The notes under the pieces are model-generated. The model did not search any database and was not told the origin of the DNA. It worked only from the letters and a program-made list of their open reading frames with translations. DNA of 64,000 nt from assembly GCA_020848075.1 (NCBI GenBank), contig JADLAV010000037.1:26072-90071 (forward strand). The letters are read 5' to 3'. Made by a program: the position numbers and the translations under genes. This document shows, piece after piece, positions 2,870 to 46,407 of the stretch. How positions within the stretch are numbered: the stretch's first letter is position 1; the number at the start of each line of letters is the position of its first letter. Source of the stretch: Burkholderiales bacterium. Its GTDB lineage: Bacteria > Pseudomonadota > Gammaproteobacteria > Burkholderiales > SG8-39.

Positions 2870-3274
2870 ATGAAGTCTGGCCTCGCAGTCGGCACCACCG
2901 CAACGCGCCAAGTCCTCATCGACCGGCCGCGTACCGTCGACTTTCTCGGCGAGAACCTGCGCGTCTACGCGACCCCCGAGCTCGTGCGCGATTTCGAGAT
3001 CGCGTGCCGCGAGTTCCTGCTCCAGTACTGCGAGCCCGGCGAGGACTCGGTCGGGACCGGGATCGGCGTGACGCACGGCGGCGCGACGTTGCTCGGCGCG
3101 ACAGTCGAGATCACCATCACGGTGAAGGCGGTCGACGGCCGGCGCGTGACCTTCGATCTCGTCGCGCGCGACCAGGCGGAGGAGGTATCGCGCGGCGAGC
3201 ACGGCCGCTTCATCGTCGAGGTCGAGAAGCTGCGCGCGCGCGTGGCCGCGAAGGCGCAGAAATCCGCGGGCTAG
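2870..3274 (+). CDS. FlK-like hotdog-fold acyl-CoA thioesterase
   Basis: A 134-residue single-domain protein. VGTGIGVTHGGATLLGATV followed by VDGRRVTFDLVARD and GEHGRFIV matches the hotdog family of fluoroacetyl-CoA thioesterase FlK and its many uncharacterised relatives, which hydrolyse small or activated acyl-CoAs. An ATG at 2870 is preceded by GGAGGAATGAAGG. It lies 40 bases before padB and is very likely co-transcribed. PadBCD yields phenylglyoxylate plus free CoA, so a thioesterase here could release a phenylglyoxylyl-CoA intermediate or clear a dead-end CoA ester. That role is inferred from position; the family call is firmer. Confidence 0.75.
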   Translation: MKSGLAVGTTATRQVLIDRPRTVDFLGENLRVYATPELVRDFEIACREFLLQYCEPGEDSVGTGIGVTHGGATLLGATVEITITVKAVDGRRVTFDLVARDQAEEVSRGEHGRFIVEVEKLRARVAAKAQKSAG

Positions 3275-3314
3275 CCGAGGCCTGCGGTCCCCTTCCACCC
3301 TGACGGAGGCGCCG

Positions 3315-6032
3315 ATGGCGGCCGATGTCCGCAAGGTTCCAGAGTACTGCTACCAGTGCGTCGCCGGGCCCGACCTCTTGCAGGTCAAGGTCGAGAACGG
3401 CGTCGCCACCGAGGTCGAGCCGAACTTCCGCGCTGCGGAAGTGCACCCGGGCGGGGGCAAGTGCTGCGTCAAGGCGTATGGGCTGGTGCAGAAGACATAC
3501 AACCCGAACCGGCTCCTCACTCCCATGAAGCGCACCAACCCGCAGAAGGGGCGCGAGCACGATCCGAAGTTCGTGCCGATCTCGTGGGACGAGGCGTTCG
3601 ACCTCGTTGCGGGAAAGCTGAACGAGCTGCGTGCGAAGGGGCTCCTCGACGAGGTCGGCTATCCGCGCATTGCCGCGAGCTTCGGCGGCGGCGGCACGCC
3701 GACCTACTACATGGGCACTTTCCCGGCGTTTCTCTCGGCCTGGGGACCGGTGGACTTCAGCTTCGGCAGCGGGCAGGGCGTCAAGTGCTACCACTCCGAG
3801 CATCTCTACGGCGAGCTCTGGCATCGCGCGTTCACCGTGTGCGCGGACACCCCGACCACGCGCTACGTGCTCTCGCTCGGCGCGAACACCGAGGCCTCGG
3901 GCGGGGTGGTCGCCGCGTGGCGCCACGCCGAGGGGCGCATGAATCGCCACCTGAAGCGCGTGCAGGTCGAGCCGCACCTCTCGATCACCGGCGCGTGCTC
4001 GGCAGAGTGGGTGCCGATCCGGCCGAAGACCGACCCGGCGTTCCTGTTCGGCATCATTCACGTGCTGCTGCACCGGCACCCGCGCGAGGCGCTCGACGTG
4101 CCGTTCCTCAAGGACCACACCGGGTCGCCGTATCTCGTCGGCCCCCACGGCTACTACCTGCGCGAGCCGCAGACGCAGAAGCCGCTGCTGTGGGATCTCC
4201 GCCGCAACGCGGCGGTGCCGTTCGATGCGCCGGACACCGACCCGGCGCTCGAAGGCGAGTTCACGCTCGACGCGCTGGAGCTCGGGGCCGACGGGGAGAC
4301 CTGGAACCATACCGGCGTACGCGCCGAGACCGCGTTCGCGAAGCTCGTCAGGCACATGGCGCAGTACACGCCCGAGTGGGCCGACAAGGTCTGCGACATC
4401 CGCCCGGGCACGGTCCAGCGCATCGCGGACGAATTCCTCGCGCACGCCCAGGTCGGCGCGACGGTCGACATCGACGGCGAGACGCTGCCGCTCCGTCCGG
4501 TCGCGATCACGCTCGGCAAGACGGTGACGAACGGCTGGGGCGGCTACGAGAGCTGCTGGGGGCGCACCCTCCTCGCTTGCCTCGTCGGCGCCCTCGAGGT
4601 GCCGGGCGGCACGCTCGGTACGACGGTGCGGCTGAATCGGCCGGCGACTTCGCGGCAGGCGAGCGTGCGGAAGGGGCGCGACGGGTTCATGGAATACCCG
4701 ATGAACCCCACGGACAAGGCGCACTGGGCCGAGCGGCCGACCGTGCGGAACGCCTACTCGACCCTCGTTCCGCTCTCGGCGAACTCCCCGTGGAGCAACG
4801 CGCTCGGGCCGACGCATCTTGCATGGCTCTTCCGCGACGGCTCGCCGGAGCACTGGCCCGAGGTCACGCCGCCCGACCTCTGGTTCGTCTATCGGACGAA
4901 CCCGACGATCTCGTTCTGGGACACCGCGGCAATTGCCCGCCGCATCGCCAAGTTTCCGTTCATCGTGGCCTTCGCCTACACGATCGACGAGACCAACTGG
5001 ATGGCCGACGTGCTGTTGCCGGAAGCGACGGATCTCGAGAGCATGCAGCTCATCCGCATCGGCGGCACGAAGTTCGTCGAGCAGTTCTGGGACCATGAGG
5101 GCTTCGCGCTGCGGCAGCCGGCGGTGGCTCCGCAGGGCGAGGCGCGCGACTTCACCGACATCGCCACCGAGCTCGCGGCGCGCACCGGGTTGCTGGAGAA
5201 GTACAACCGCGCGATCAACCGCGGCGCCGCATGCGCACCGCTCTCCGGCGAAGGCTACGACTTCCAGCTCGCGATCGATTGCAAGCACACCTCCGAGGAG
5301 ATTTGGGACCGCGTTTGCCGGGCGGCGAGCGCGGAGGTGACCGGCGGCGCGGCGACCGACGGGCTCGACTGGTTCCGCGCAAACGGCTATCGGACCCGGC
5401 CGATCTCACGGCGCATCTGGTACCTCTTCCTGGAGCTGCGCAAGCAGGGCATCCGCTTCGAGATGCCGTTCCAGGAGCGGCTCCTCCGCCATGGCGTCGA
5501 GCTCGGCAACCGCCTGCACGAGCACGGCATCAAATGGTGGGACACCCAGCTCGGCGAGTACCAGGCGCTGCCGGCCTGCAAGGATTTCCCGGGGATCTGG
5601 GAGAAGGACGCAGCGCTGCATGCGAAAGGCGCGGAGTACCCGTTCTGGCTGGTGACGACGCGCTCGATGCAGTACGTATGGGGCGGCAACGCCGGCATCC
5701 AGCTGATGGACGAGGTCTCGCGCAACATGCGCGGCCACGGCGGCGTCGTGATCAACACGCGGACGGCCGAGCGGCTCGGCATCGCCGAAGGCGACCTCGT
5801 CGAGGTCCGCTCCTACCTGCACGACACGCAGGGGCCGGCGATCCTGCGCGAGGGCATCCGTCCCGACACGCTGCTGATGATCGGGCAGTTCGACCACTGG
5901 GCGACGCCCTACGCCAAGGACATGAAGGCGCCGAGCATGAACTCGCTGGTGCCGATGTCGATCGATCTCACCGACGCGACCGGCTCGGCCGCGGACCTGG
6001 TGCGCGTCTCCGTGCGGAAGATCGCCGCATGA
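3315..6032 (+). CDS. padB: Phenylacetyl-CoA:acceptor oxidoreductase, molybdopterin catalytic subunit
   Basis: A 905-residue DMSO-reductase-family protein. It starts YCYQCVAGPDLLQVKVENG, the Fe-S/molybdopterin entry region, with VPISWDEAFDLVAGKL, TLGKTVTNGWGGYESCWGR and a C-terminal pterin-binding region. There is no twin-arginine signal, as expected for an enzyme acting on a cytosolic CoA ester. With the four-cluster and NrfD-type subunits directly downstream, it matches PadB, which with PadCD performs the four-electron alpha-oxidation of phenylacetyl-CoA to phenylglyoxylate, passing electrons to quinone. Odd point: beside C12, C15 and the CC pair near residue 50, the usual third cysteine of the CxxCxxxC pattern is not seen. 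A different aryl-CoA substrate is possible. Confidence 0.87.
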   Translation: MAADVRKVPEYCYQCVAGPDLLQVKVENGVATEVEPNFRAAEVHPGGGKCCVKAYGLVQKTYNPNRLLTPMKRTNPQKGREHDPKFVPISWDEAFDLVAGKLNELRAKGLLDEVGYPRIAASFGGGGTPTYYMGTFPAFLSAWGPVDFSFGSGQGVKCYHSEHLYGELWHRAFTVCADTPTTRYVLSLGANTEASGGVVAAWRHAEGRMNRHLKRVQVEPHLSITGACSAEWVPIRPKTDPAFLFGIIHVLLHRHPREALDVPFLKDHTGSPYLVGPHGYYLREPQTQKPLLWDLRRNAAVPFDAPDTDPALEGEFTLDALELGADGETWNHTGVRAETAFAKLVRHMAQYTPEWADKVCDIRPGTVQRIADEFLAHAQVGATVDIDGETLPLRPVAITLGKTVTNGWGGYESCWGRTLLACLVGALEVPGGTLGTTVRLNRPATSRQASVRKGRDGFMEYPMNPTDKAHWAERPTVRNAYSTLVPLSANSPWSNALGPTHLAWLFRDGSPEHWPEVTPPDLWFVYRTNPTISFWDTAAIARRIAKFPFIVAFAYTIDETNWMADVLLPEATDLESMQLIRIGGTKFVEQFWDHEGFALRQPAVAPQGEARDFTDIATELAARTGLLEKYNRAINRGAACAPLSGEGYDFQLAIDCKHTSEEIWDRVCRAASAEVTGGAATDGLDWFRANGYRTRPISRRIWYLFLELRKQGIRFEMPFQERLLRHGVELGNRLHEHGIKWWDTQLGEYQALPACKDFPGIWEKDAALHAKGAEYPFWLVTTRSMQYVWGGNAGIQLMDEVSRNMRGHGGVVINTRTAERLGIAEGDLVEVRSYLHDTQGPAILREGIRPDTLLMIGQFDHWATPYAKDMKAPSMNSLVPMSIDLTDATGSAADLVRVSVRKIAA

Positions 6033-6676
6033 CGCGCTGGGCGATGGCCATCGACCTGCGCGCTTGCGTGGGCTGCCAGACATGCACGACGGCGTGCCGG
6101 CACACCAACGCCACGCCGCCCGGGGTGCAGTGGCGCAAGGTGCTCGACCTCGAGCAGGGCGAGTTCCCGGACGTCAAGCGAACCTTCGTGCCGGTCGGCT
6201 GCATGCACTGCGCCGACCCGCCGTGCATGCACGTCTGCCCCTCGACCGCGACCAAGCAGCGGGCCGACGGCATCGTCACGATCGACTACGATCTCTGCAT
6301 CGGCTGCGGCTATTGCGCCGTGGCCTGCCCGTACCAGGCGCGCCACATCGTGCACGAGCGCGAGTTCGCGTACGCCGACGGCCCGACCAAGTCCGAGGAG
6401 GCGCGCTTCGACGAGAAGCGCATGTCGGTGGCGACCAAGTGCACGTGGTGCGTCGACCGCATCGACAGCGGACTCGCCAAGGGGCTCAAGCCCGGCGTCG
6501 ATCCGGACGCGACGCCCGCCTGCGTGAACTCCTGCATCGCGAACGCTTACACGTTCGGCGATCTCGACGATCCGCAGAGCAACGTCTCGCAGAAGGTGCG
6601 CGGGACGACGTGGTTCCGGATGCACGAGGAGCTCGGCACCGATCCGCACATCTTCTACGTCTGGGACGAGAAATGA
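6029..6676 (+). CDS. padC: Phenylacetyl-CoA:acceptor oxidoreductase, four-cluster Fe-S subunit
   Basis: A 215-residue DmsB/NrfC-type electron-transfer subunit. Four cysteine groups are visible in order: ACVGCQTCTTACRHTN, GCMHCADPPCMHVCP, LCIGCGYCAVACPY, and CTWC with CVNSC near the C-terminus. This is enough for four [4Fe-4S] clusters. It would carry electrons from the molybdopterin subunit to the membrane subunit. Its ATG overlaps the padB stop (ATGA) and its own stop overlaps padD, so translation is coupled. Confidence 0.88.
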   Translation: MTRWAMAIDLRACVGCQTCTTACRHTNATPPGVQWRKVLDLEQGEFPDVKRTFVPVGCMHCADPPCMHVCPSTATKQRADGIVTIDYDLCIGCGYCAVACPYQARHIVHEREFAYADGPTKSEEARFDEKRMSVATKCTWCVDRIDSGLAKGLKPGVDPDATPACVNSCIANAYTFGDLDDPQSNVSQKVRGTTWFRMHEELGTDPHIFYVWDEK

Positions 6677-7569
6677 ACCGGAACCAGCCCGCGAGCGTCA
6701 AGCCCTGGCACCAGACCAACTGGGACTGGCGCGCGGCGCTCAATTTCATCTGCGGCGGCACCGGGACCGGGCTGCTCGTCGCCGCGGCGCTGTTCGGCGG
6801 CGCAGCCTATCCCTGGCTCGCGCTCGTGGCACTCGCGTTCGTCGGCTTCGGGCTGTTCTGGGTGTGGATGGAGATCGGCAAGCCGTGGCGGGCGATCAAC
6901 GTCTTCTTCCATCCGCACACGTCCTGGATGACGCGCGAATCGATCGTCGCGGGCCCGCTGTTTCTCGCGGCGCTCGCAGCCGCCGCGACCGGGAAGGGAT
7001 GGCTCATCGTGCTGGCGGCGCTGCTCGCGCTGGCGTTCCTCTACTGCCAGGGCCGCATCCTGAAGGCGTCCAAGGGGATCCCCGCGTGGCGCGCGCCCGC
7101 GATCGTCCCGCTCGTGATCGCCACCGGCCTCACCGAGGGCATGGGCGTCGCGGCGGCGGCACTCGCCGCAGCCGGCGGTCTCGCAGACCGCACGCCGATC
7201 ATCGTGCTCGTCGTGCTGCTCGTTGCGCGCGAGATCGCGTGGCGCCGCTACCGGAGCGCGCTCGCGGCGAGCGGCGCGCCGAGGGGCACGCTCGACGTGC
7301 TCGGACGCATGCATCGGCCGTTCAGCGTTGCCGGTAACTGGGCGCCGGCCCTGTTGCTCGCCGCGTCGCTGCTCGTGCAGAGCGGCGCGGGCGGACTCAC
7401 GATCATTGCCGGCGCCGCTGCAGCGCTCTTCGGCTGGTACGCGAAGTTCACCATCGTCGCGCGAGCGGCCTTCAACCAGGGTTTCGCGTTGCCGGTGCTG
7501 CCGATTCGCGGGAAGGGCGAGCGTGTGCCGGGAGCGAAACCCGGCTGGCAGAAGCCCGCAGGCGGTTGA
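6673..7569 (+). CDS. padD: Phenylacetyl-CoA:acceptor oxidoreductase, membrane anchor / quinone subunit
   Basis: A 298-residue DmsC/NrfD-like integral membrane protein with roughly eight hydrophobic helices, for example LLVAAALFGGAAYPWLALVA and APALLLAASLLVQSGAGG. WHQTNWDWRAALNFICGGTG at the N-terminus and TSWMTRESIVAGP are typical of this anchor family. It should hand electrons to the quinone pool. Start and stop are tightly coupled to padC (ATGA overlap). The last 15 residues are a basic cytosolic tail. The operon seems to end here: 195 bases and an FNR-like box precede the next gene. Confidence 0.85.
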   Translation: MNRNQPASVKPWHQTNWDWRAALNFICGGTGTGLLVAAALFGGAAYPWLALVALAFVGFGLFWVWMEIGKPWRAINVFFHPHTSWMTRESIVAGPLFLAALAAAATGKGWLIVLAALLALAFLYCQGRILKASKGIPAWRAPAIVPLVIATGLTEGMGVAAAALAAAGGLADRTPIIVLVVLLVAREIAWRRYRSALAASGAPRGTLDVLGRMHRPFSVAGNWAPALLLAASLLVQSGAGGLTIIAGAAAALFGWYAKFTIVARAAFNQGFALPVLPIRGKGERVPGAKPGWQKPAGG

Positions 7570-7618
7570 TGGGCAATTCCCTCGCCGTGCTGCGCTGCGG
7601 TCTCGCGTCGCAGGCGCT

Positions 7619-7632
7619 TTGATCTCGATCAC
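7619..7632 (+). promoter_or_regulatory. FNR/ANR-type box upstream of the hemerythrin gene
   Basis: TTGATCTCGATCAC matches TTGAT-N4-ATCAA at nine of ten defined bases. It sits 133 bases before the hemerythrin start in the intergenic gap. This suggests oxygen- or NO-responsive control of the hemerythrin and NnrS-like pair. Confidence 0.5.
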
Positions 7633-7764
7633 GATGCGAAATGCGAGTGTGGGGAGTGTCCACGTCGCGTCAAGCGACGTTTAAGATTCATCAAAGAACC
7701 AGAGGCGGTGCGTCGGAAAGAATCGGCCTGATCGAAGGCCGAGACCCGCACACCGGAGGGCGTA

Positions 7765-8208
7765 ATGGCGAGCATCGAGGAATTCATGGCCCAGCACCAC
7801 AAGGCGTGCGACGCGCGCTTCGCCGAGGCGGAAGCGGCCGCGGGCGGCGGCGACTGGACGGTGGCCGGACGCCTGTTCAAGGCGTTCGAGAAGGAGATGG
7901 CGCACCACTTCGAGATGGAGGAGGCGGTGCTCTTCCCCGCCTTCGAGGAGCGCACAGGCATGGACGGCGGTCCCACTTACATGATGCGCGAGGAGCACGA
8001 GCAGATGCGCCAGATCCTCGCGGCGATGACGGCGGCCGCCGAGGCGCAGGATGCCGACGAGTATCTGGGCCAGGCGGAAACGCTGAACATCCTCATGCAG
8101 CAGCACAACCTCAAGGAAGAGCAGGTGCTCTACCGGATGATGGATCAACAGTTCGGGGGTGAGGCCGACATGCTGCTCGCTCGCTTCGACGAGGTCGGCG
8201 CGGCCTGA
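7765..8208 (+). CDS. Hemerythrin HHE-domain protein
   Basis: A 147-residue four-helix protein. Ligand-like motifs are QHHKACD near residue 11, MAHHFEMEEAVLFPAFEE near 50-65, REEHEQM near 75 and QQHNLKEEQVLYRMMD near 112-125, which together supply the usual His and Glu/Asp set for a di-iron site. Such proteins bind O2 or NO, or buffer iron. An FNR-like box lies upstream and a heme-copper-like membrane protein downstream, so NO or O2 handling beside an anaerobic pathway is plausible. Substrate is not determinable from sequence. Confidence 0.85.
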   Translation: MASIEEFMAQHHKACDARFAEAEAAAGGGDWTVAGRLFKAFEKEMAHHFEMEEAVLFPAFEERTGMDGGPTYMMREEHEQMRQILAAMTAAAEAQDADEYLGQAETLNILMQQHNLKEEQVLYRMMDQQFGGEADMLLARFDEVGAA

Positions 8209-8268
8209 CGCCGGCCTGCACGCGGCGCGCCGTACTCCGCGGGCCGCCCGGCGAGATCTCGGGGGCTC

Positions 8269-9570
8269 ATGCTCCAGCCCGGACTGAAGTTCGAGCAGGC
8301 GCCGCCGATCTCGGTGCCGTTCCGGTTCTTCCTCTCGGCGCCGGTGTTCGGCCTCGCCTGCGCGGGCCTGATCCTGTGGCAGGGGCCCGAACTCTTCGCG
8401 TCGCGCTGGACGCCATCTGCGCTTGCCGCCACGCACCTGCTCACCCTGGGCTTCCTGGCCTCCGCGATGATCGGCGCAATGATGCAGATCCTGCCCGTCC
8501 TGGTCGGTGCGGCGATGCCCGCGCCGCGGGTGGTGGCGGCGGTCACGCACGTCCTGCTCGTGCTGGGAACGCTCGCACTCACCGGCGGATTCCTGCTGCT
8601 CCAGCCGGTCTCCCTGCAGGCGGCCGTCGTTCTGCTGAGTACCGCGTTCGCAGTCTTCGCCGCCGCCGTCGGAGCGAGCCTCGCGCGTGTGCGCACCTGG
8701 AATACGACCGTGGGCGTGATGGCGCTCGCGACGATCGCGCTGGCGGCCGCCGTCGCGCTCGGAGCGACCTTGGCCGCCAGTCTCGGCTGGGGCCTCGCGC
8801 TCCCGAGCGCGTCGATCCACGACCTGCACCCGGTCTGGGGTCTTCTCGGATGGATCGGCGTGCTCGTCATCGGCGTCGCGTACCAGGTCGTGCCGATGTT
8901 CCAGATGACGCCCGCATACCCGAGCGCGCTCACGCGGTGGCTTACCTGGACCATCTTCGCGGTGCTCGTCCTCTGGTCGGGCGCCCGGCTTGCCCTGGGC
9001 GAGGCCGGCGCACCGCTTGCCTCGGCGCTCGGTCTCGCGCTGATCGTCGCGTTCATCGCGTTCGCGCTGGTCACGCTCGGTCTGCAACGCCAGCGCCGGC
9101 GCCGGCAGGCGGACGTGACGCTCGACTTCTGGCGGGTCGGCATGGCCTGCCTGGTCGCGGCGGGCGCGTGCTGGGCCGCCCGTTTGCTCGTGCCCGAGCG
9201 GTTGCCGGACGGTTTCGACGTCTTTCTCGGGGTGCTGGCGATCGCCGGGGTCGCGCTCTCCGTGATCAACGGCATGATGTACAAGATCACCCCGTTCCTC
9301 GTCTGGTTTCACCTTCAATCGATCGTGGCGCGACGCACCACGGTGCCGCACATGCGCAAGATCCTCGGCGAGCGGGAGCAGCGCGCGCAGTTGCGCGCGC
9401 ATCTCGCGGCGCTCGCATTGCTGTTTGCCTCCCCGTGGTGGCCGTTGCTCGCCTACCCCGCCGGGCTTGCCCTCGGCGTCTCGATGGCCTTGCTGCTGCG
9501 CAATCTGATCGCGGTCGTGCGCGCGTATCGCGAGACCGTCGATCGGGTCACGGTCTCGAGCAGCGGTTAG
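8269..9570 (+). CDS. NnrS-like / heme-copper-oxidase-subunit-I-like polytopic membrane protein
   Basis: A 433-residue protein with about twelve hydrophobic segments. Conserved-looking histidines and aromatic motifs occur in or near helices: ATHLLTLGFLASAMIGAMMQ, IHDLHPVWGLLGWIG, GVAYQVVPMFQMTPAYP and NGMMYKITPFLVWFHLQ. This layout recalls NnrS and other orphan heme-copper-oxidase subunit I homologues, which are often found beside hemerythrins and NO-response genes. It lies 60 bases after the hemerythrin gene in the same direction. Function is inferred only; it could be a heme/copper membrane protein of unknown role. Confidence 0.6.
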   Translation: MLQPGLKFEQAPPISVPFRFFLSAPVFGLACAGLILWQGPELFASRWTPSALAATHLLTLGFLASAMIGAMMQILPVLVGAAMPAPRVVAAVTHVLLVLGTLALTGGFLLLQPVSLQAAVVLLSTAFAVFAAAVGASLARVRTWNTTVGVMALATIALAAAVALGATLAASLGWGLALPSASIHDLHPVWGLLGWIGVLVIGVAYQVVPMFQMTPAYPSALTRWLTWTIFAVLVLWSGARLALGEAGAPLASALGLALIVAFIAFALVTLGLQRQRRRRQADVTLDFWRVGMACLVAAGACWAARLLVPERLPDGFDVFLGVLAIAGVALSVINGMMYKITPFLVWFHLQSIVARRTTVPHMRKILGEREQRAQLRAHLAALALLFASPWWPLLAYPAGLALGVSMALLLRNLIAVVRAYRETVDRVTVSSSG

Positions 9571-9675: not shown

Positions 9676-12432
9676 TCAGCCCCGCTTCAGTCGTTGGCGG
9701 TCGATCTTGCCAGTGCCGGTCTTCGGCAGCTCGTCCAGATACTCGACCCGGCGCGGATACTTGTAGGGCAGGAGCGCCTGCTTCACGAAGTCCTGCAGTG
9801 CCTTCGTCGCCGCGGCGCCCGGCGCATGCCCGGGGCGCAGCGCGACGTACGCCTTGAGCGTCATCAGCCGGTTCTCGTCCTCGACTGCCAGGACGGCGCA
9901 CTCGCGCACCGTCGGGTGCTCGGCGAGCGCCCGCTCGACCTCGAGCGGATGCACCCATTGGCCGCTCACCTTCACCAGATCGTCCGCGCGGCCTTCGAAC
10001 CAGTAGAAGCCGTCGGCGTCCACGCGGAACCGGTCGCCGGTGCAGATCCAGCCTTCGCGCATCGTCTCGCGCGTCCGGTCGGGCCGGTTCCAGTAGAAGG
10101 GGGCGTTCGAGTCGCCACGCACCCACATGATGCCGGACTCGCCGTGCGGCACCGTCCGTCCATCTGGATCGCAGAGCTTGATCTCGTAGCCCGGGACTGC
10201 CGCGCCGCTCGCGCCGGGCTTCTGCCGTTCGGGCCGGTTGGAGAGATAGATGTGCAGCACCTCGGTCGAGCCGAGCCCTTCCACGATCCGCAGGCCGTAG
10301 CGGCGCTCCCACTCGCCGAACATCTCCTGCGAGAGTGTCTCCGCCGCGGAGAGGCATAGGCGCAGGCTCGAGAGAACGCGCTGCCCGGACCCCGGGTGGA
10401 CGACCAACGCGTTGTAGAGGGTCGGCAGGCCGAAGAGGAGGGTCGGTCGATGCCGCTCGATCACGCCGAATACCGCCTCTGGGTCTGGCCGCCCCGGGTG
10501 CAGCACCACGGTGGCCCCGACCGAGAACGGAAAAGTGATCGCATTGCCGAAGCCGTACGCGAAGAAGATCTTCGGCGGCGAGAAGGCGACGTCGGTCTCG
10601 CGGATGCCGAGGACGCGCTTGCCGTACGACTCGTGCGTGTAGGGCGCGTCATGGTGCAGGTGTACGACGCCCTTCGGCCGCCCGGTGCTGCCGGAGCTGT
10701 ACATCCAGAACGCCATCTCGTCCGGATGCGTCGCCGCCTCGGCGAGCTCGGTGCACGCGGCTTGCGTCCACGCCTTCCAGTGCACGATCTCGATCAGCTC
10801 GAGGGGCGGCGGCTCGCCCGCGCCGACGAGGACCAGGCTGCGCAGGCGGCTCGCGCCGACTCCGGGATGATCCAGCAGCCCGGCGAGCGAACCGTGCACG
10901 ATCGCGGCTTCGGCGCCGCTGTCGGCGAGGTAGTAAGCGACGAGCTCGGCGGGGGAGAGCGTGTTGACGAGGACCGGTACGAAGCCGGCGCGCATCGCGC
11001 CGAAGATCGCCGCCACGTACTCGGGCGAGTCGAGCATGACGAGCAGCACGCGGCTGCCGCGCGCGAGGCCCAGGTCGGCGAGGGCGTTCCCCACCCGGCA
11101 GGCGAGCGCCGCGAGCTCGCCATAGCTCAACGTGCGGTCTTCGCAGATCACCGCCGGCTTGCCGCCGCGTCCGGCCGCGAGGTTGTCGAACAGGATGCGT
11201 GAAGCGTTGTAGCGCTCGGGCACGCGCCAGCCGATCTCGCGCGCCCCCGGAACGTCCGCCCCGCACGGGTCGGGCTGCCGCTCCGGATGTGCGGCGCGGG
11301 GATCGGCGCTTCGCTCGCGGTCCACGCGCGCCATGAACCGCGGCGCGAGCGCGCGCAGCCGCTCGTCGCTCATGCGCCCGCTGCGCGCCATGTAGTCGTA
11401 GGCGAGCTGCCAGGGCGCGAGCTTCATCTTGTCGGCGATCCGCTCGTACCAGAGCGAGCTTGCATTCGCCGCATCCACGAGCTTCTCGGCGATCGGCTTG
11501 CGGTCGCGCTCGAACGCGGCGAGGCCCTGCGCGACGTCCTCGCCGTGCGCCGCAAGGGCGGCCGCGAGCGCGATCGAGTCCTCCATCGCGAGGCGCGTCC
11601 CCGAGCCGATCGAGAAGTGCCCCGTGCGCACCGCGTCCCCGATGAGTGCGACGTTGCCGGCCGTCCATTGCTGCGTCCACAGGAGCGGAAAGTTGCGCCA
11701 GATCGAGCGGTTGGACACGAGCGGCCGCCCGTCGAGATCCGGCACGAAGACCCGCTCGCAGTAGGCGCGGCTCTCGTCGTCGCTCATCCGGTCGAGCCCC
11801 GCACGGTGCCAGGTCGCCGCGTCGCACTCGACGATGAAGGTGCTCATGTCGGGTGCGTACCGGTAGTGGTGCGCGACGAAGTGGCCGTGTGCGTCCTCGC
11901 GGAAGGTGAGCGTCAGGCACTCGAATGGCTTCGCCGTCCCATACCATGCGAACTTGTTGCTCAGGTACCCGATGCGGGGTTGCAACTGCTCGGCGAGCGT
12001 CCGGCGCACCATCGAGTTGACGCCGTCGGCGCCCACCACGAGGTCGAACCCGGCGAGCTCGTCGAGCGCGCGCACCGTCCGGCCGTATTCGACGCGCACG
12101 CCCGCGGCCTCGGACAGCCGCTGCAGCATGACGAGGAGCTTCAGCCGGCCGATCGCCGAGAAGCCATTGCCATCGACGAGGACGGCCTCGTCGCGATGCA
12201 CGATCTTCTGCTCGGGCCAGTGTTCCATCCCGGCCTCGATCTCGGCGAAGATCGCGGGCTCGCCCGCCCGCAGGAACTCGAGGGCGCCGGCAGAGAAGAC
12301 CACGCCGAAACCGAACGTCGCGCCGCGCGCGTTCTGTTCGATGACGAGGACTTCGTCGTGCGGGCGGCGGCGCTTCAGGAGCAGGCCCAGGAAGAGCCCG
12401 GCCGGGCCGCCGCCGATGATCGCAGATCTCAT
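9676..12432 (-). CDS. Fusion protein: aryl-CoA FAD monooxygenase joined to a benzoate-type CoA ligase
   Basis: One uninterrupted 918-residue frame. Residues 1 to about 385 form a class A flavin monooxygenase: GGGPAGLFLGLLLKRR (FAD), LVVGADGVNS, and GDAVRTGHFSIGSGTRLAME. This variant is typical of 2-aminobenzoyl-CoA monooxygenase and salicylyl-CoA 5-hydroxylase. From about 405 to the end is an AMP-forming ligase of the benzoate/2-aminobenzoate-CoA ligase type: ERYNASRILFDNLAAGRG, MYSSGSTGRPKGVVH, EGLGSTEVLHIYLSN and the terminal PKTGTGKIDRQRLKRG with the conserved lysine. The protein could activate an ortho-substituted benzoate to its CoA ester and hydroxylate it. Usually these are separate genes. 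It is last in an operon with a dienoyl-CoA-reductase-type flavoenzyme. Both domains look intact; the substrate is unknown. Confidence 0.85.
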   Translation of the reverse strand: MRSAIIGGGPAGLFLGLLLKRRRPHDEVLVIEQNARGATFGFGVVFSAGALEFLRAGEPAIFAEIEAGMEHWPEQKIVHRDEAVLVDGNGFSAIGRLKLLVMLQRLSEAAGVRVEYGRTVRALDELAGFDLVVGADGVNSMVRRTLAEQLQPRIGYLSNKFAWYGTAKPFECLTLTFREDAHGHFVAHHYRYAPDMSTFIVECDAATWHRAGLDRMSDDESRAYCERVFVPDLDGRPLVSNRSIWRNFPLLWTQQWTAGNVALIGDAVRTGHFSIGSGTRLAMEDSIALAAALAAHGEDVAQGLAAFERDRKPIAEKLVDAANASSLWYERIADKMKLAPWQLAYDYMARSGRMSDERLRALAPRFMARVDRERSADPRAAHPERQPDPCGADVPGAREIGWRVPERYNASRILFDNLAAGRGGKPAVICEDRTLSYGELAALACRVGNALADLGLARGSRVLLVMLDSPEYVAAIFGAMRAGFVPVLVNTLSPAELVAYYLADSGAEAAIVHGSLAGLLDHPGVGASRLRSLVLVGAGEPPPLELIEIVHWKAWTQAACTELAEAATHPDEMAFWMYSSGSTGRPKGVVHLHHDAPYTHESYGKRVLGIRETDVAFSPPKIFFAYGFGNAITFPFSVGATVVLHPGRPDPEAVFGVIERHRPTLLFGLPTLYNALVVHPGSGQRVLSSLRLCLSAAETLSQEMFGEWERRYGLRIVEGLGSTEVLHIYLSNRPERQKPGASGAAVPGYEIKLCDPDGRTVPHGESGIMWVRGDSNAPFYWNRPDRTRETMREGWICTGDRFRVDADGFYWFEGRADDLVKVSGQWVHPLEVERALAEHPTVRECAVLAVEDENRLMTLKAYVALRPGHAPGAAATKALQDFVKQALLPYKYPRRVEYLDELPKTGTGKIDRQRLKRG

Positions 12433-12500
12433 GACCGCTTCCGAGACCAGCAGGTTGATACAAATGGGGCCACACCCCCTTTTGAATCCCCAATTTCAGC

Positions 12501-12576
12501 GATGCAAAACGCCAATTCCCCTCGGACCAACGGCTGTCTCAAGGTTTCGGGCACACGAGTTTCCGCGTTTTGCATC
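12501..12576. promoter_or_regulatory. Paired 12-bp inverted repeat in the leader of the fusion gene
   Basis: GATGCAAAACGC (12501-12512) and its exact reverse complement GCGTTTTGCATC (12565-12576) lie 52 bases apart in the 193-base gap before the fusion gene. They could be two operator half-sites or the base of a long stem. Their presence hints that the fusion gene has its own control within the operon. Confidence 0.45.
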
Positions 12577-12625
12577 ACGTTGCTGGCTGCGTCCCGCGGG
12601 ACGATACCAGCGCGCTAGCGGCGTG

Positions 12626-12844
12626 TCACGAGGCGCCCGGTGCCAGCGGGTCCGTGCGGTCGCCAGGCCGGCCACCGCGCCGCGCGAACTCGGCGAGCGC
12701 TGCGCGGAATGCAGCGAGCTCGGCCTCCGGCACCGGCGCGCCGCACTCGTAGCAGCAATTCGTCATGCGATCGAACCAGCGGCAGCCGCACTCGTCGCAG
12801 GCGAGCTCGGGCGCGCCAGAGGGGTTGGCGAAGATCACCGGCAT
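12626..12844 (-). CDS. Small zinc-ribbon protein
   Basis: A 72-residue protein beginning MPVIFANPSGAPELACDECG. Two CxxC pairs, CDEC near residue 17 and CYEC near 32, make a rubredoxin-like zinc ribbon; the remainder is an acidic-basic helical tail. The ATG at 12844 overlaps the last ten bases of the upstream orphan gene, which supports translational coupling. The track ORF 12626-13153 is only an upstream extension of this frame. No function can be named; a role as a partner or metal-binding adaptor for the operon's flavoenzymes is a guess. Confidence 0.6.
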   Translation of the reverse strand: MPVIFANPSGAPELACDECGCRWFDRMTNCCYECGAPVPEAELAAFRAALAEFARRGGRPGDRTDPLAPGAS

Positions 12845-13311
12845 GCCCCCATGAACGCGAGGCCGAGCGAGTCGAGGAAGTCCTCGTAGCCCGCTCGGGC
12901 GAGCTCGGCGCGGGTGCGGAAGGTGCAGAGCATCACGTCGCCGCGGCGAATTCGGCGCTTGAGCCGCCCGAGCGCATCCCCCTCGAGCGCTGCGTAGGCC
13001 TCGGCGATCGACTGTGCGTCGGCGAGGAGCAGGAAATCGGCGCGCGCCTCGCCGAAGCCGCCGATCTGCTCGCAGCGCGCGTGCATCCGGCCCTCGGCCG
13101 CTTCCCACGCGAGGAATGGTGCGCCGGCGGTGCCGAACCGCGCATCGCGCCAACCAGCCGGCTGCCGCCCGGGCGCGAACCCGGTTGGCTCGCGCGGGAG
13201 GATGCCGATGCGCGCGCCCGGAGCGAGCTCGGTGAAGAGCTCGGCATGGCGATCGAGCATGCGCTGCCAGCCGGCGACGTCGGCGAGCATCGTGTTCGCG
13301 TCGGACACCAT
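12835..13311 (-). CDS. Orphan protein of 158 residues
   Basis: I do not recognise the family. The frame lies 40 bases after the flavoenzyme gene and overlaps the zinc-ribbon gene, so it is part of the same operon. The protein looks soluble and alpha/beta, with segments MLDRHAELFTELAPGARIG, GAPFLAWEAAEGRMHARCE and GDVMLCTFRTRAELARAGYE; there is no signal peptide or membrane helix. Codon use resembles the neighbours. It may be a subunit or accessory factor specific to this pathway. Confidence 0.6.
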   Translation of the reverse strand: MVSDANTMLADVAGWQRMLDRHAELFTELAPGARIGILPREPTGFAPGRQPAGWRDARFGTAGAPFLAWEAAEGRMHARCEQIGGFGEARADFLLLADAQSIAEAYAALEGDALGRLKRRIRRGDVMLCTFRTRAELARAGYEDFLDSLGLAFMGACR

Positions 13312-13351
13312 GTCGGCAATCGGATCTGCGCGACCGCGGGCGGGTGCGGCG

Positions 13352-15328
13352 CTAGATCCTCGCCCCGAGCCGGTAGCCTTCGTGGATCGCCGCGTCGATG
13401 CCGCGCGGAATGAGGGCGTCGCCGCACCCGTGCAGCTCGTCGATCATCCACTCGAACTCGTGGAAGAGCTCCTGGTTCGATCGGCGTGGCGCGGTGGCGA
13501 TCACCGTGTCGGCCGGGACGAGACGCGTCTCGCCCTTCGCGTTCACCACGGTGCAGCCATCGTCCGCCACGCGCGTCACCCGGCTCAGCGTGAGCGTCGT
13601 GATCTCGAGCTCGTCGACCCAGGCAGTGTGGCGCCACTTGAAGGAGGGCATCACGTCGCCGGCGATGCGCTTCTCCGCCTCGACGATGGTGACCTCCGCC
13701 CCGCCCTTGCGCAGCGACTCGGCGAGCGTGAGACCCACCTTGCCGCCGCCGATCACCACGATCCTGCTGCCGACGCTCACCGCACCCTGCGCGACCGCCA
13801 GCCCGTCGAGGATCCGCTCGTGGCCCTCGATGCCGCGCAGCGCTTCGCGGTCGACGCGCGCGCCGACTGCCACGACCGCCACGTCATACTGGTGCAGGAT
13901 GCTGCGCATCAGCTTCGCGTTGGCCTCGGTGCCGAGCCTGAGCTCGACGCCGAGCTTGCGCGCCATCAGCTCGTAGTGGCGCACGATGCTCTCCAGATCG
14001 TCGGGGCGCGCGAGATCGCGCGCCGCGTAGCCGCGGAGGTTGCCGCCGACGTGGTCGGACTTCTCGAAGACCGTCACCTGGTGGCCGCGCTTTGCGGCCG
14101 TGATCGCGCACTCCATGCCGGCAGGGCCGGCGCCGATCACCATCACGCGCTTCTTCACCGCGGCGGGGGTCACGTGGTACTCGGGCTCGACCTCGTGGCC
14201 GAGCGCGGGGTTCATGGTGCAGGTGTAGGGGAGGTCGCGGAAGAGCCGCGAGAGGCAGTTGAGCGAGCCGATGCAGCGGCGCACCTCGTCCAGGCGATCC
14301 TCGGCGGCCTTGTGCACGAGCTCGGGATCCGCCAGCAGCGGCCGGCAGACCTCCCAGAAGTCGAACTCGCCGTCGGCGATGCACTGGTTCGCCATGCGCG
14401 GATCGGGCAGCCGCACGCCGAAGGTGATCGGGACGTTCGGCAGCAGCCTCTTCGCGCGGGCAGCGAGGTAGTTCCAGTGGCCGGGCTGGATGTCGCGGCC
14501 GATCGAGGAGTCGGGCGCCTCCTGCCAGCCCACGGTCACGCTGATCATGTCGACGCCGCAATCGGCGGCCTGCTGCATCAGCTCGAAGCACTCGTCTTCG
14601 GTGTTGCCGCCCCAGCGGTCCATCAGCTCGGCGCCGTTCAGGCGGACGATGAGCGGGTGCTCCGGCGTCGCCTGCTTGATCGCGTCGATCAGCTCGCGCA
14701 TGAAGCGGCCGCGGTTCTCGAGCGATCCGCCGTACTCGTCGGTGCGCTGGTTCGTGAACTTGGAGTTGAAGGTGGCGAGCAGATAGCCCATGAAGCTCGT
14801 CACCTCGGTTCCGTCGAAGCCGGCCTTGATGGAGCGCTTCGCCGCATCGGCGTGCTGGCGCACCATCTCGCGGATCTCCTCCTTGGTGAGCACGCGCGGC
14901 GGGCGGAAGTGCGGGAGGGTCTGCGGTACGTCCGAGGGCTGGACGCAGTAGCCGAGATCGATGCCGCCGTAGCGCCCGGCGTGCAGGATCTGCTGAATCC
15001 CGATCGCGCCCGCGTCGCGGATGTCGCGCGCGATCTCCTCGAACTGCGGCAGGAACTTGTCGTCGTAGATCGCGACCTGACGGAAGTACGCCTTGCCCTC
15101 GCCGAGCGGGTCGGGATAGGCCCCCTGGTTGGTGATGATGCCGCAGCCGGTCCGCGCGATGACGCGCATGCGGGCGAGCTCGCGCGCGGTGATGAAGCCA
15201 TCGCGCGTGTTGTAGTTCGAGACGCAGCAGGCGCCGTACTTGATGCGGTTCGCGCTGGTGAAGCGGCCGATCCGGCCGGTCTGAAAGAGATTCCGGAGCT
15301 TCAACTCCCCGGGTCGTGGCGTGGTCAT
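13352..15328 (-). CDS. 2,4-dienoyl-CoA-reductase-like FMN/FAD Fe-S oxidoreductase (Old Yellow Enzyme superfamily)
   Basis: A 658-residue protein with the FadH architecture: an OYE-type TIM barrel (residues 1-370, with LHAGRYGG and TNQRTDEYGGSLENRGRFM), a Fe-S loop and a pyridine-nucleotide-disulfide region (MVIGAGPAGMECAITAAKRG at about 395; VVIGGGKVGLTLAESLRKG at about 540). Family members reduce dienoyl-CoA or enone substrates with NAD(P)H. The Fe-S loop reads CIGSLNCLSRLF...YTCTMNP, whereas FadH-type loops have CxxC-x3-C-x11-C; here one cysteine is replaced by serine and the spacing is one residue shorter. First gene of the operon leading to the fusion protein, so it may reduce the hydroxylated aryl-CoA. 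Substrate unproven. Confidence 0.8.
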   Translation of the reverse strand: MTTPRPGELKLRNLFQTGRIGRFTSANRIKYGACCVSNYNTRDGFITARELARMRVIARTGCGIITNQGAYPDPLGEGKAYFRQVAIYDDKFLPQFEEIARDIRDAGAIGIQQILHAGRYGGIDLGYCVQPSDVPQTLPHFRPPRVLTKEEIREMVRQHADAAKRSIKAGFDGTEVTSFMGYLLATFNSKFTNQRTDEYGGSLENRGRFMRELIDAIKQATPEHPLIVRLNGAELMDRWGGNTEDECFELMQQAADCGVDMISVTVGWQEAPDSSIGRDIQPGHWNYLAARAKRLLPNVPITFGVRLPDPRMANQCIADGEFDFWEVCRPLLADPELVHKAAEDRLDEVRRCIGSLNCLSRLFRDLPYTCTMNPALGHEVEPEYHVTPAAVKKRVMVIGAGPAGMECAITAAKRGHQVTVFEKSDHVGGNLRGYAARDLARPDDLESIVRHYELMARKLGVELRLGTEANAKLMRSILHQYDVAVVAVGARVDREALRGIEGHERILDGLAVAQGAVSVGSRIVVIGGGKVGLTLAESLRKGGAEVTIVEAEKRIAGDVMPSFKWRHTAWVDELEITTLTLSRVTRVADDGCTVVNAKGETRLVPADTVIATAPRRSNQELFHEFEWMIDELHGCGDALIPRGIDAAIHEGYRLGARI

Positions 15329-39372: not shown

Positions 39373-39615
39373 TCAGCTGTGCAGCGCCTCGTACTTTGCC
39401 TGCAGCTCCTCGCGGCTCTCGGCGAAGTCCGGGTTCGGGACGATGCAATCGGCCGGACAGACGAGCTTGCACTGGGGTTCGTCGTGAGCGCCGACGCACT
39501 CGGTGCACTTCAGCGAGTCGATCACGTAGGGGCTGCCCGCGGTGATCGCATCGTTGGGGCAGACCGAGGGGCACGCGTCGCAGGACGTGCAGTCCATGGT
39601 GATCATCAAAGCCAT
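39373..39615 (-). CDS. fdx: 2[4Fe-4S] ferredoxin, electron donor to benzoyl-CoA reductase
   Basis: An 80-residue ferredoxin from ATG 39615 (the longer track ORF starts upstream). MDCTSCDACPSVCPNDAI and KCTECVGAHDEPQCKLVCP carry eight cysteines with the Alvin-type insertion between the clusters. The same kind of ferredoxin, reduced by KorAB, supplies electrons to class I benzoyl-CoA reductases and is encoded next to bcr genes in Thauera. It is the last gene of this operon. Confidence 0.9.
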   Translation of the reverse strand: MALMITMDCTSCDACPSVCPNDAITAGSPYVIDSLKCTECVGAHDEPQCKLVCPADCIVPNPDFAESREELQAKYEALHS

Positions 39616-39676
39616 GTGTCTCTCCTTGGTGGGCGGGGCATGGCCCGCCCGGCAGGTCACCCGAATACGCGGTCGA

Positions 39677-40519
39677 TTACGCAGCGGCGCGCGTCTGCAG
39701 GTCGTGCAGCCGCTCGTGCCGGAAGGCGCCCCACAGCGCGGCGCCGATCGCGCCGGCGTAGATCGAGTCCGGATGGTTGGTCGCGTCCAGGTTGACCTTC
39801 TCGTTCGTCATCTCCTCCTGGATCGCGGCCAGGAGGCCCGTGTCCAGCGCGAGACCGCCGGTGAGCAGCACCCTGCCGCTCGTGATGCCGGTCGCCTTGA
39901 GCAGCTTCACCACCCGCGAGGCCATCGAGATATGGATTCCCTTGAGGATGTCCGGGGTCGCGATCCCGCGCGAGACCATGTTGATCACGTCGGTCTCGGC
40001 CAGCACCGCGCAGATCGAGCTCACCTTCTCCGGATCCTGCGAAGTCTGCGACAGCGACCCGATCTCCTCGACCGCGACGCCCAGATAGCGCGCGATGTTC
40101 TCGAGGAATTGCCCCGAGCCCGACGCGCACTGGCTGGTCATCTTGTAGCCGAGCACCTTGCCGCGCTCGTCGACGCGGATGGCCCGGCCGTTCAGCGCGC
40201 CGATGTCCATCACGGCCCGCGCCTCGGGATGGAGGAAGACGCCCCCGCGCCCGTGCGTGGTCATCGAGTAGAAGTGGCCCGTGGAGAACTTGACGTTCTC
40301 GCCCTCGCCGGTGGTGGCGATGTAGGCAACGTCGTTCGCGGCGAGCTTCGCATCCGCGAGCACGTCGTCCAGACCCTGCTGCGCGAGCTCCATCGGGTCG
40401 CGCCGGCGGATCCGCTCGACGCGTTTCGCGAGCCACTCGTGCCGGCCGCCGTCGTTCCTGAAGAGCACCGTTTTCACGGCGCCCGAGCCGATGTCGATGC
40501 CAACCGTGTGGATCTTCAT
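39677..40519 (-). CDS. bcrD: Benzoyl-CoA reductase subunit D
   Basis: A 280-residue ASKHA-fold ATPase subunit: GIDIGSGAVKTVLFRNDGG for nucleotide binding, SQCASGSGQFLENIARYLG and SSICAVLAETDVIN with cysteines for the [4Fe-4S] cluster shared at the BcrA/BcrD interface. It forms with BcrA the activator module that drives ATP-dependent electron transfer. The start codon overlaps the bcrA stop by one base. Length equals that of known BcrD/BadG proteins. The track ORF 39677-41095 is an artefact extending into bcrA. Confidence 0.93.
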   Translation of the reverse strand: MKIHTVGIDIGSGAVKTVLFRNDGGRHEWLAKRVERIRRRDPMELAQQGLDDVLADAKLAANDVAYIATTGEGENVKFSTGHFYSMTTHGRGGVFLHPEARAVMDIGALNGRAIRVDERGKVLGYKMTSQCASGSGQFLENIARYLGVAVEEIGSLSQTSQDPEKVSSICAVLAETDVINMVSRGIATPDILKGIHISMASRVVKLLKATGITSGRVLLTGGLALDTGLLAAIQEEMTNEKVNLDATNHPDSIYAGAIGAALWGAFRHERLHDLQTRAAA

Positions 40520-41853
40520 TATCGCGCCTCCGCAGTCTTGCCTTCCTCGACCACCGCGCGCCAGGCGAACGTCGCGCCGCCGAGCGCGCCGGTGTAGATC
40601 GAATCGGGGTTGATGTTGATAGTCATCTCGCCGTAGTTCTCGAAGATCAGATCGCGCAGCGCCTTCACCGCCGCCTCGTTCTTGGCGACCCCGCCGGTGA
40701 AGGTGAACTCGTTGCGGATGCCGCCAGAGCGTGCGAGGATCGACATCGCGCGCAGGACGATCGCGCGGTGCAGGCCGGCCATGATGTCCTCGCGCTTGTC
40801 GCCGATCGAGAGCCGGTCCCGGAGCTCCGCGCCCGCGAACACCGTGCAGGTCGAGTTGATCTTGATCGTCTTGGTGGACTTCATCGCCATCGGCCCGAGC
40901 TCGTGCAGGCCGAGGTTCATCTCGTCGGCGATGTAGCCGAGGTAGCGTCCGCAGCCGGCCGCGCAACGGTCGTTCATCTGGAAGCTCTCGACGATGCCGG
41001 CCTTGTCGACCTGGATCGCCTTGGTGTCCTGGCCGCCGATGTCGAGCACGGTCGCGGTCCGGGGGTACATCACGTGCGCGCCGAGTCCGTGGCACAGGAT
41101 CTCCGAGCGGATGTGCTCCTTGGAGAAGGGCAGGCGCGCCCGGCCGTAGCCGGTGCCCACCGTGTAGGTTTCCTCCATGGGGGTGTCGAGCACGCCCTTG
41201 ATCGGCGCGCTGATCTTCGCGCGCTTGGTCGTCGTCTCGGGGAGCGCCTTGAACGTCCGCTCGAGTCCCGCCAGCAGGTGCCGGCTGACCGAGTCGTTGT
41301 ACACCCGGTTTTCTACCTCGATGATCGAGCGGTCGAAGACGTTGAGCAGGTTGTCGTAGTGGACGCCCGCGTCCCTGGCGACCTCCTCGCCGAGCGCCAG
41401 GTACCGGCTGCCCGCGATGTCGCGGAAGAAGTCGCTCTTCCTCTTGGCGCCCGGCGCGAAGAGCTCCGGGGCTTCCGCCTGCAAGCGCTTGAACGTCTCG
41501 CCGAGCGCCGCCTGCACGGCCTTCGTCTCGCCGCCGAACCGGCCCTCGGCGTTGCGCTGGCAGACCTCTTCGAGGTCGGTGAGCTGCTCGAGGAACTGCT
41601 CGAGCCGGAAGTCGCGCTCGAGCTGCTCGATGAACGCGTCCAGACCGCCGTTCAGCGCCTTGGACCTGCCGAGCGCCTCGCGGAACAGCTGGAAGCGCGC
41701 ATTGACGAGCGCCTCGGTCTTGGCCACTGTTGCGGCGGTGTCGTAGTTCGAGCGCGAGTTGGTGATGCCGCGCCCGAGCACGTTGCGGTCCTCGTCGATC
41801 ACCACCGCCTTGGTGGTGGTCGAGCCGAGGTCGATGCCGATGAAGAGTCGCAT
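40519..41853 (-). CDS. bcrA: Benzoyl-CoA reductase subunit A
   Basis: A 444-residue ATPase subunit. [20 protein letters not shown] binds [22 protein letters not shown] and [15 protein letters not shown] hold the bridging cluster cysteines. Compared with BcrD it carries a longer middle segment, as in BcrA/BadF of Thauera and Rhodopseudomonas. With BcrD it hydrolyses two ATP per two electrons delivered to BcrBC. Ten bases separate it from bcrB. Confidence 0.93.
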
Positions 41854-41863
41854 TGCGTGCCCC

Positions 41864-43219
41864 TCAGTGCGCCGCCGCCGGTTCCGCGGAGCCCGCGCGG
41901 CGCTTCTGGTTGATCATCTGGAAGTAGCTCTCCAGCCGATTCTTGATGTTCGCCCCCGAGAAATAGCGCGGATCGACGAGGTCGGATTCGACGAACGCCG
42001 CCGGCTTGCCGGTGCGCTTCTCGACTTCGCGCAGCATCAGGAGCTGCCCCGCCGAGAAGCTGTTGCAGCTCTTGATCGAGTTGATCAGCAGCCCGTCGGC
42101 CTGGTACTCGTCAATGTACTTGCAGATCATGTCGATGCGCTGCGGGAAGTTGAGGTTCGTGTAGCAGCCGAGGCAATAGCGCGCGAGCGACTCGAGCGGG
42201 TGATCCGCGTCGTGGCGGAAGCCGAAGTCGTAGACGCCGCCAACCTTCGAGTAGGTGGAGGCGACTACCACGGCGCCGTCGTCGTAGAACATCTTCCAGA
42301 AGTCGCGGAAGCTGGTCCAGTTCGGCGGCCCCTCGGTCACCAGGCGGTACTTCTCCTCGCCCATCTCGCCTTCGGGGGTGATCGGGCCCTTCTTCAGGCG
42401 CACGCGCTCCTCGATCTCGCCCCGCAGCACGCTGTAGAACTTGGTCGCCTCGCGCGTCCCGCGAAACGCCGTGAACATCGGCCCGATGTAGTAGACCCCG
42501 CCGAAGTAGCCGTCGATCGGGCTCGGCCGGTTCTTGGCCGACTGCAGGACCGCGACCAGATCCTCCTCGGCCTTCACCGACTCCTTCATGTACTCGCGCA
42601 GGCGGTCGATGTCGAACTTCACGCCGGAGACGCGCTCGAGCGTCGGGATCATCTCCTCCTTGAGTTGCTTCACGACGTACTGGACCATGTTGTCGCTGAT
42701 CTTGCCGTCGCCCTGGTACGGGACGTGCAGCATGGTCGTCTCGCAGTCGTACTTCTGCCGGATGAGCTCGAACCACTTCATGAACGTGAAGCAGCCAGTG
42801 TAGGAGAGCACCAGGACGTCCGGCACCGGCAGCTTCTCGCCGGTCGGCCCGATCTGGCCCGCCTGCATCATGCCGAGGTCGGCCTTGACGTAGGTGCACA
42901 CGTCCTCCGAGTGCCCCTCGCGCTCGGCGTCCATGATCATCTTGCCGGACTTCTTGCGCATGCCGTTCTGCAGGGCGTTCGTCTCCGGCAGGCTGCGCGC
43001 GAAGTCGAAGCACATCAGGAGCTCGTTCAGGTTGCCGGGCACGAACGTGGCCGAGACCTTACGGCCAACGTCGTGCGCGATGGCGAGGTCGTGGTAGTTC
43101 CCGTTGATCATCTCCTTCTGCAGCCACATGGAGTCCTCTTTCAGGACTTCCTTCTTCGGCTTCGCGGCGGCGGGTTGCGCGACGGGTCGCGGGGTCGGCG
43201 GATTGTGCGGTGTGGTCAT
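41864..43219 (-). CDS. bcrB: Benzoyl-CoA reductase subunit B
   Basis: A 451-residue subunit of the substrate-binding BcrBC module (HgdB-like dehydratase superfamily). Cysteines in [27 protein letters not shown] and [14 protein letters not shown] are candidate cluster ligands. An Ala/Pro/Lys-rich N-terminal tail of about 28 residues precedes [19 protein letters not shown]. It overlaps bcrC by ATGA. Confidence 0.93.
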
Positions 43220-44382: not shown

Positions 44383-44428
44383 GTGCCTTTCCTCCTCGTT
44401 TGCCCGCGTCGCCGCGGGCGCTTTCCGG

Positions 44429-45199: not shown

Positions 45200-45240
45200 C
45201 TCCGCTTTTCGTCAGTGCCTCGTGCGTTCGCCATTGCTCC

Positions 45241-45287
45241 TGGATCCCCGCATACGCGGGGATGACGGCGCGCGCTGCGCGCCGTCA
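45241..45287. repeat. Two hairpins between oah and dch, one a dispersed REP-like element
   Basis: ATCCCCGCATACGCGGGGAT (45244-45263) is a 7-bp stem hairpin. The 25 bases from 45241 recur, reverse-complemented with one mismatch, at 61836-61860. A second hairpin, GACGGCGCGC-GCT-GCGCGCCGTC (45264-45286), abuts the oah stop. Both could attenuate transcription or stabilise the had-oah part of the mRNA. Confidence 0.7.
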
Positions 45288-46385: not shown

Positions 46386-46407
46386 CGGTTCTGCTCCTCA
46401 GTAGCGT

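Follow-up and report, generated by a model that had tools for sequence, protein, structure and literature searches.

Which pathway does a monooxygenase::CoA-ligase fusion serve, and do the genes beside it belong to that pathway? The window, the whole stretch of 64 kb of DNA that was analyzed, carries on its minus strand a gene for such a fusion, downstream of genes for an OYE-type flavoenzyme, an orphan, and a zinc-ribbon-like protein. An earlier note on this DNA had proposed that these genes form a new CoA-dependent aromatic route, by which an ortho-substituted benzoate would be activated, hydroxylated, and reduced in one system.

Architecture of the 918-residue protein

The fusion (918 aa; positions 9676 to 12432, minus strand) is one open frame with the Pfam-type domains FAD_binding_3, AMP-binding, and AMP-binding_C. 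The monooxygenase half (about residues 1 to 375; 11308 to 12432, minus strand) has intact GGGPAGL, GADGVNS, and GDAVRTGHFSIGSGT motifs. Residues 1 to 378 correspond to the N-terminal half (model positions 1 to 388 of 768) of NF006101, a model for bifunctional salicylyl-CoA 5-hydroxylase/oxidoreductases of the type of 2-aminobenzoyl-CoA monooxygenase/reductase (ACMR), matched with 371.7 bits against a cut-off of 1078. The CoA-ligase half (about residues 406 to 918; 9679 to 11217, minus strand) has intact YSSGSTGRPKG, GRADD, and PKTGTGKI motifs, and residues 406 to 917 matched TIGR02262 end to end with 544 bits, above the cut-off of 375. The frame, its coordinates, and the intact FAD monooxygenase and benzoate-type ligase are thus as the earlier note had described them. 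Unlike ACMR, in which a similar monooxygenase is joined to an OYE half, the fusion carries a full-length ligase instead, and domain and profile searches of its chain found no OYE domain.

The closest solved structure to the monooxygenase half was VioD (8gqr and 3c4a; TMt 0.86, 34% identity), an enzyme whose substrate is a violacein precursor and not a CoA ester. The ligase half was nearest to benzoate-CoA ligases (4eat, 4rlf, and 2v7b) and to the anthranilate-CoA ligase AuaEII (4wv3). It shares with AuaEII and the TIGR02262 family the fold, the P-loop, the C-terminal lysine motif, and the scaffold of the pocket, but differs from them in being fused and in having altered pocket motifs (FSPPKIFFAYGFGN, FGLPT, and SAAE), which are common to the fused form and to relatives encoded by two genes. 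The corresponding motifs of the box ligase encoded in the same genome are FSAAKLFFAYGLGN, YGVPT, and SAGE. The AuaEII pocket signature (FALAKLFFTFG and SASE) is absent, and the fusion resembles the benzoate type.

The two halves are connected by a linker (about residues 376 to 406; 11215 to 11289, minus strand, for residues 382 to 406) that is predicted to be disordered and lies where the two genes overlap in the two-gene relatives. A structure model of the fusion agreed with the domain assignment and left residues 382 to 406 disordered; built from an alignment of 15 rows and with a pTM of 0.51, it is uninformative on contact between the domains. The linker is probably flexible, so that the gain from fusion would likely be fixed stoichiometry and proximity rather than a proven channel.

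Two-gene relatives and the gentisate route

Orthologs of the two halves are encoded by separate genes, in the same order, at 69 loci, and in 58 of these the stop codon of the monooxygenase gene and the start codon of the ligase gene overlap by 4 bp (ATGA). Gene neighborhoods were counted for the 65 two-gene loci of at least 9 kb. Gentisate 1,2-dioxygenase was encoded in 54 of them and a MaiA-type isomerase in 48, and smaller numbers had an FAA hydrolase (10/65), a 4HBT-type thioesterase (8/65), or a relative of aromatic-acid transporters (6/65). Genes for maleylpyruvate isomerase or hydrolase were frequent beside the dioxygenase gene, and some loci also encoded an aromatic acid/H+ symporter. 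The dioxygenases of three such loci (L062, L014, and L043) scored 561, 549, and 629 bits, respectively, against a cut-off of 442. In L062, the genes for a regulator, the monooxygenase, the ligase, the dioxygenase, and a hydrolase are consecutive, and the same gene set can be read from the plasmid annotations of Rhizobium sp. AB2/73 and Agrobacterium vitis. One genome of the window's own class likewise has monooxygenase, ligase, and dioxygenase genes together.

This synteny is that of a described pathway. The sdg route of Streptomyces sp. WA46, as cited in PMC13215587, consists of the salicylyl-CoA ligase SdgA, the salicylyl-CoA 5-hydroxylase SdgC, and the gentisate dioxygenase SdgD; conversion of salicylyl-CoA to gentisyl-CoA by SdgC is stated in both PMC13215587 and PMC6460240. 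The fusion combines the same two kinds of enzyme: a flavin monooxygenase like SdgC and the N-terminal part of ACMR, whose FAD motifs are intact, and as its partner an aryl-CoA ligase whose catalytic motifs are likewise intact. It differs in holding both in one chain and in having no dioxygenase gene in the window. Its ligase belongs to the benzoate-CoA ligase family, unlike the AMP-ligase-like SdgA. In the WA46 work, salicylyl-CoA was reportedly made by SdgA, and gentisyl-CoA is said to break down to gentisate.

Because the two-gene orthologs sit with gentisate genes, the fusion most likely carries out steps one and two of the sdg route already described. We consider it probable that the protein joins a salicylate-type CoA ligase to an aryl-CoA 5-hydroxylase. 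In this scheme, the C-terminal half would convert an acid, ATP, and CoA to an aryl-CoA thioester, which the N-terminal half would hydroxylate para to an ortho hydroxyl (or amino) group, using FAD, NAD(P)H, and O2. Salicylate is the most likely acid, and gentisyl-CoA (2,5-dihydroxybenzoyl-CoA) would be the product; its hydrolysis, spontaneous or by a thioesterase, would yield gentisate for the gentisate ring-cleavage pathway. By orthology and gene order, the protein is the fused version of a widespread two-gene pair, and most likely one of a known degradation route; the new route that the earlier note had suggested is not supported and gives way to an sdg-type salicylate route. Should salicylate be confirmed as the substrate, the enzyme would be of relevance to a plant hormone. 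As a Rosetta-stone link, the fusion would also place in a CoA-dependent salicylate/gentisate route the very common gene pairs 'benzoate-CoA ligase family' plus 'FAD-dependent monooxygenase' of rhizobia, Bradyrhizobium among them.

The source genome encodes further enzymes for aromatic acids. A full ACMR (1104 bits, cut-off 1078) adjoins a CoA-ligase gene, a benzoate-CoA ligase is encoded close to boxC on a contig other than that of the fusion, which lies outside the boxABC neighborhood, and a MaiA protein is also encoded. Judging by their families, anthranilate and benzoate would each have a dedicated activating system, which makes salicylate (or 3-hydroxybenzoate) the likelier task of the fusion. 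Within the window, a class I benzoyl-CoA reductase cluster (39373 to 46815) encodes BcrA and BcrB, both over their cut-offs, a dienoyl-CoA hydratase, and a 6-oxocyclohexene-carbonyl-CoA hydratase; anaerobic benzoyl-CoA degradation is probably also within the organism's capacity.

Were anthranilate the substrate, it would be converted to 2-aminobenzoyl-CoA and then to 5-hydroxy-2-aminobenzoyl-CoA, an ACMR-like step without ring reduction, the reductase possibly being encoded elsewhere. Homology between the monooxygenase half and the N-terminal half of ACMR is attested by the NF006101 match and by 36% identity to the ACMR copy of the same genome, and the ligase half is equally near to AuaEII and to benzoate-CoA ligases (408 and 413 bits). 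The ACMR and adjoining ligase gene already present in the genome led us to reject anthranilate as first choice, and the gentisate dioxygenase of the orthologous two-gene loci and the benzoate-like pocket motifs, without the AuaEII signature, also speak against it. We therefore regard anthranilate as an unlikely substrate.

Some observations on the fused carriers speak against the gentisate reading and leave room for a second alternative. Gentisate genes were found neither within the window nor, in the neighborhoods read, near any fused beta- or gammaproteobacterial copy. The source genome does encode a gentisate dioxygenase on another contig (519.7 bits, cut-off 442), which is weak evidence since 74 of the 98 family genomes encode such an enzyme with a score over the cut-off; genome-wide co-occurrence was for that reason rejected as support. 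Outside the genus, a dioxygenase was found in the fused carriers G344, G373, and the genome of L010, and G373 gave the same match as the genome of L019. No TIGR02272 match at E ≤ 1e-80 was found in G179 (listed as 97% complete) or in the genomes of L011, L013, and L017 (the last a chromosome-level record). This is not decisive, since divergent dioxygenases would be missed at that threshold: the enzyme of L091 reaches only 3e-79. In the fused clade, the enzyme might then have left the gentisate route, and carriers without a dioxygenase would keep the hydroxylated thioester for another CoA-dependent ring opening or reduction, with the ligase half of the fusion handing its thioester on to the hydroxylase half. 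We find such a departure doubtful.

The two-gene synteny with gentisate dioxygenase would fit 3-hydroxybenzoate as well as salicylate, since hydroxylation of 3-hydroxybenzoyl-CoA at C6 would also give gentisyl-CoA and lead into the same lower pathway. The second-best ligase model was indeed HbdA, a 3-hydroxybenzoate-CoA ligase (379.9 bits), but this is far from its cut-off of 1000 bits, and the box ligase of the same genome has about the same score (376 bits), so the match is not specific. Characterized relatives of the monooxygenase half, moreover, hydroxylate para to a hetero-atom that is ortho to the carbonyl. Of 3-hydroxybenzoate as the substrate we think it improbable, and salicylate remains the preferred acid.

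The OYE-containing module

The first of the genes upstream of the fusion encodes a 658-aa OYE-type FMN/FAD flavoenzyme with the architecture of naphthoyl-CoA and dienoyl-CoA reductases (13352 to 15328, minus strand). It is followed by the orphan (158 aa; 12835 to 13311, minus strand) and, overlapping the orphan gene, by the gene for the zinc-ribbon-like protein (72 aa; 12626 to 12844, minus strand). Neither small protein matched a Pfam or NCBIfam family, and FYDLN_acid gave a sub-threshold match for a single zinc-ribbon ortholog; both are encoded by real, conserved genes. The three genes were compared in the window (12626 to 15328) and in loci L106 to L116 and L118. Of 98 genomes of the family, 25 carry the orphan, and they represent 12 of its 26 genera. 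In all loci read, the OYE gene directly precedes it, with 74 to 78% protein identity outside the genus, and the zinc-ribbon gene follows wherever the locus extends far enough. Searches for OYE orthologs outside the family found none in 300 genomes of the order (E ≤ 1e-220) or 369 genomes of the class (E ≤ 1e-150). A shorter second orphan copy (131 aa) stands in tandem between the OYE and orphan genes in the genus member G044 (L129, 9081 to 9476; also L018), and L112 has a similar tandem pair.

The earlier note had placed the OYE gene at the head of one operon with the fusion, and a split ACMR pathway could be imagined, with the fusion supplying a hydroxylated aryl-CoA for reduction by the OYE and the small proteins as specific parts. 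The genes are on the same strand, module and fusion are adjacent in three of four members of the genus, the gap between the zinc-ribbon gene and the fusion is only 38 bp in G044 (193 bp in the window), and the closest solved relatives of the OYE are CoA-ester reductases. In G043, however, about 5 kb with opposite-strand genes separates fusion and module. The fusion occurs in one of the 26 genera of the family against 12 for the module, and the module was not found in the fetched stretch of any fusion carrier outside the genus. As each occurs apart from the other, ring reduction by the OYE and a role of the small genes as specific parts of the fusion's pathway are unsupported, and the single-operon reading, which we hold to be very improbable, was rejected. 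What is supported of the earlier proposal is that activation and hydroxylation of an ortho-substituted benzoate, as its CoA thioester, are joined in one chain. By its distribution, the trio of OYE, orphan, and zinc-ribbon genes is a separate unit, which would act on a different substrate than the fusion. The two may be co-transcribed in this genus; a shared pathway is not supported. A literature search found no description of the module.

The gap in the window also holds a MITE-like dispersed repeat of about 140 bp (12447 to 12586, minus strand), which counts against a single operon as well. Seven other copies, full or partial, occur in the genome with 82 to 87% identity. The terminal inverted repeats (CCAGCA..TGATGCAAAA) are imperfect; an inner inverted repeat of 12 bp (12501 to 12512 and 12565 to 12576) is perfect. 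The element is no part of the enzyme system.

The best solved relative of the OYE was the 2-naphthoyl-CoA reductase NCR (6qkg), matched over the whole length with 417 bits; dienoyl-CoA reductase gave 239 bits. NCR uses Y197 as its proton donor, assisted by H284 (PMC6502838). The OYE shares with NCR the three-domain organization and the proton-donor tyrosine (Y182, aligned to Y197), but has Gln269 at the position of His284, as do the orthologs read. The cluster cysteines C352, C358, and C370 are kept, whereas the second cysteine is replaced by Ser355 (motif CIGSLNC...C); this position is serine, or alanine in L109, in every ortholog in which the motif was read. The OYE thus lacks the four-cysteine [4Fe-4S] set of type III aryl-CoA reductases. 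A cluster held by three cysteines, or the absence of one, would perhaps be more unusual than the fusion itself.

Distribution of the fusion

The search covered three other members of the genus, and each has a single-frame relative with 80 to 86% identity, although in G045 the match stops at residue 722. Further MAGs encode fused proteins with 65 to 77% identity. In a tree of 82 rows, the eleven fused beta- and gammaproteobacterial rows, two of which (L019 and L100) are identical, form one clade with full SH-aLRT support. The fused proteins of Rhizobium leguminosarum (L093) and Bradyrhizobium archetypum (L016) fall outside this clade. The supported branches require at least three changes between the fused and two-gene states in this quick tree, drawn without bootstrap and rooted at the midpoint. 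Only for B. archetypum, nested deep among two-gene Bradyrhizobium, can one tell which way the state changed. The fused copy of L017 loses homology after residue 622, probably through an indel, and that of G179 has one in-frame stop. Although a single indel in the 4-bp overlap of the two-gene form would join the frames, ten distinct fused sequences, in one supported clade and with an alignable linker, leave an assembly or sequencing artefact with practically no probability. The search for the fusion in other genomes, which the earlier note had proposed as a check, thus shows a genuine protein and not a mis-assembly.

The genes that face the fusion in the window (2870 to 9570) encode a molybdopterin oxidoreductase, an FeS subunit, a membrane-subunit-like protein, a hemerythrin, and a 433-aa protein without a family. 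They are kept beside the fusion in the genus and are probably unrelated to it. A literature search found no paper naming such a monooxygenase/CoA-ligase fusion. On R. leguminosarum plasmids, the fusion is a single ORF (L093, 9947 to 12676) whose annotation reads 'benzoate-CoA ligase family protein' and leaves the monooxygenase half unnamed.
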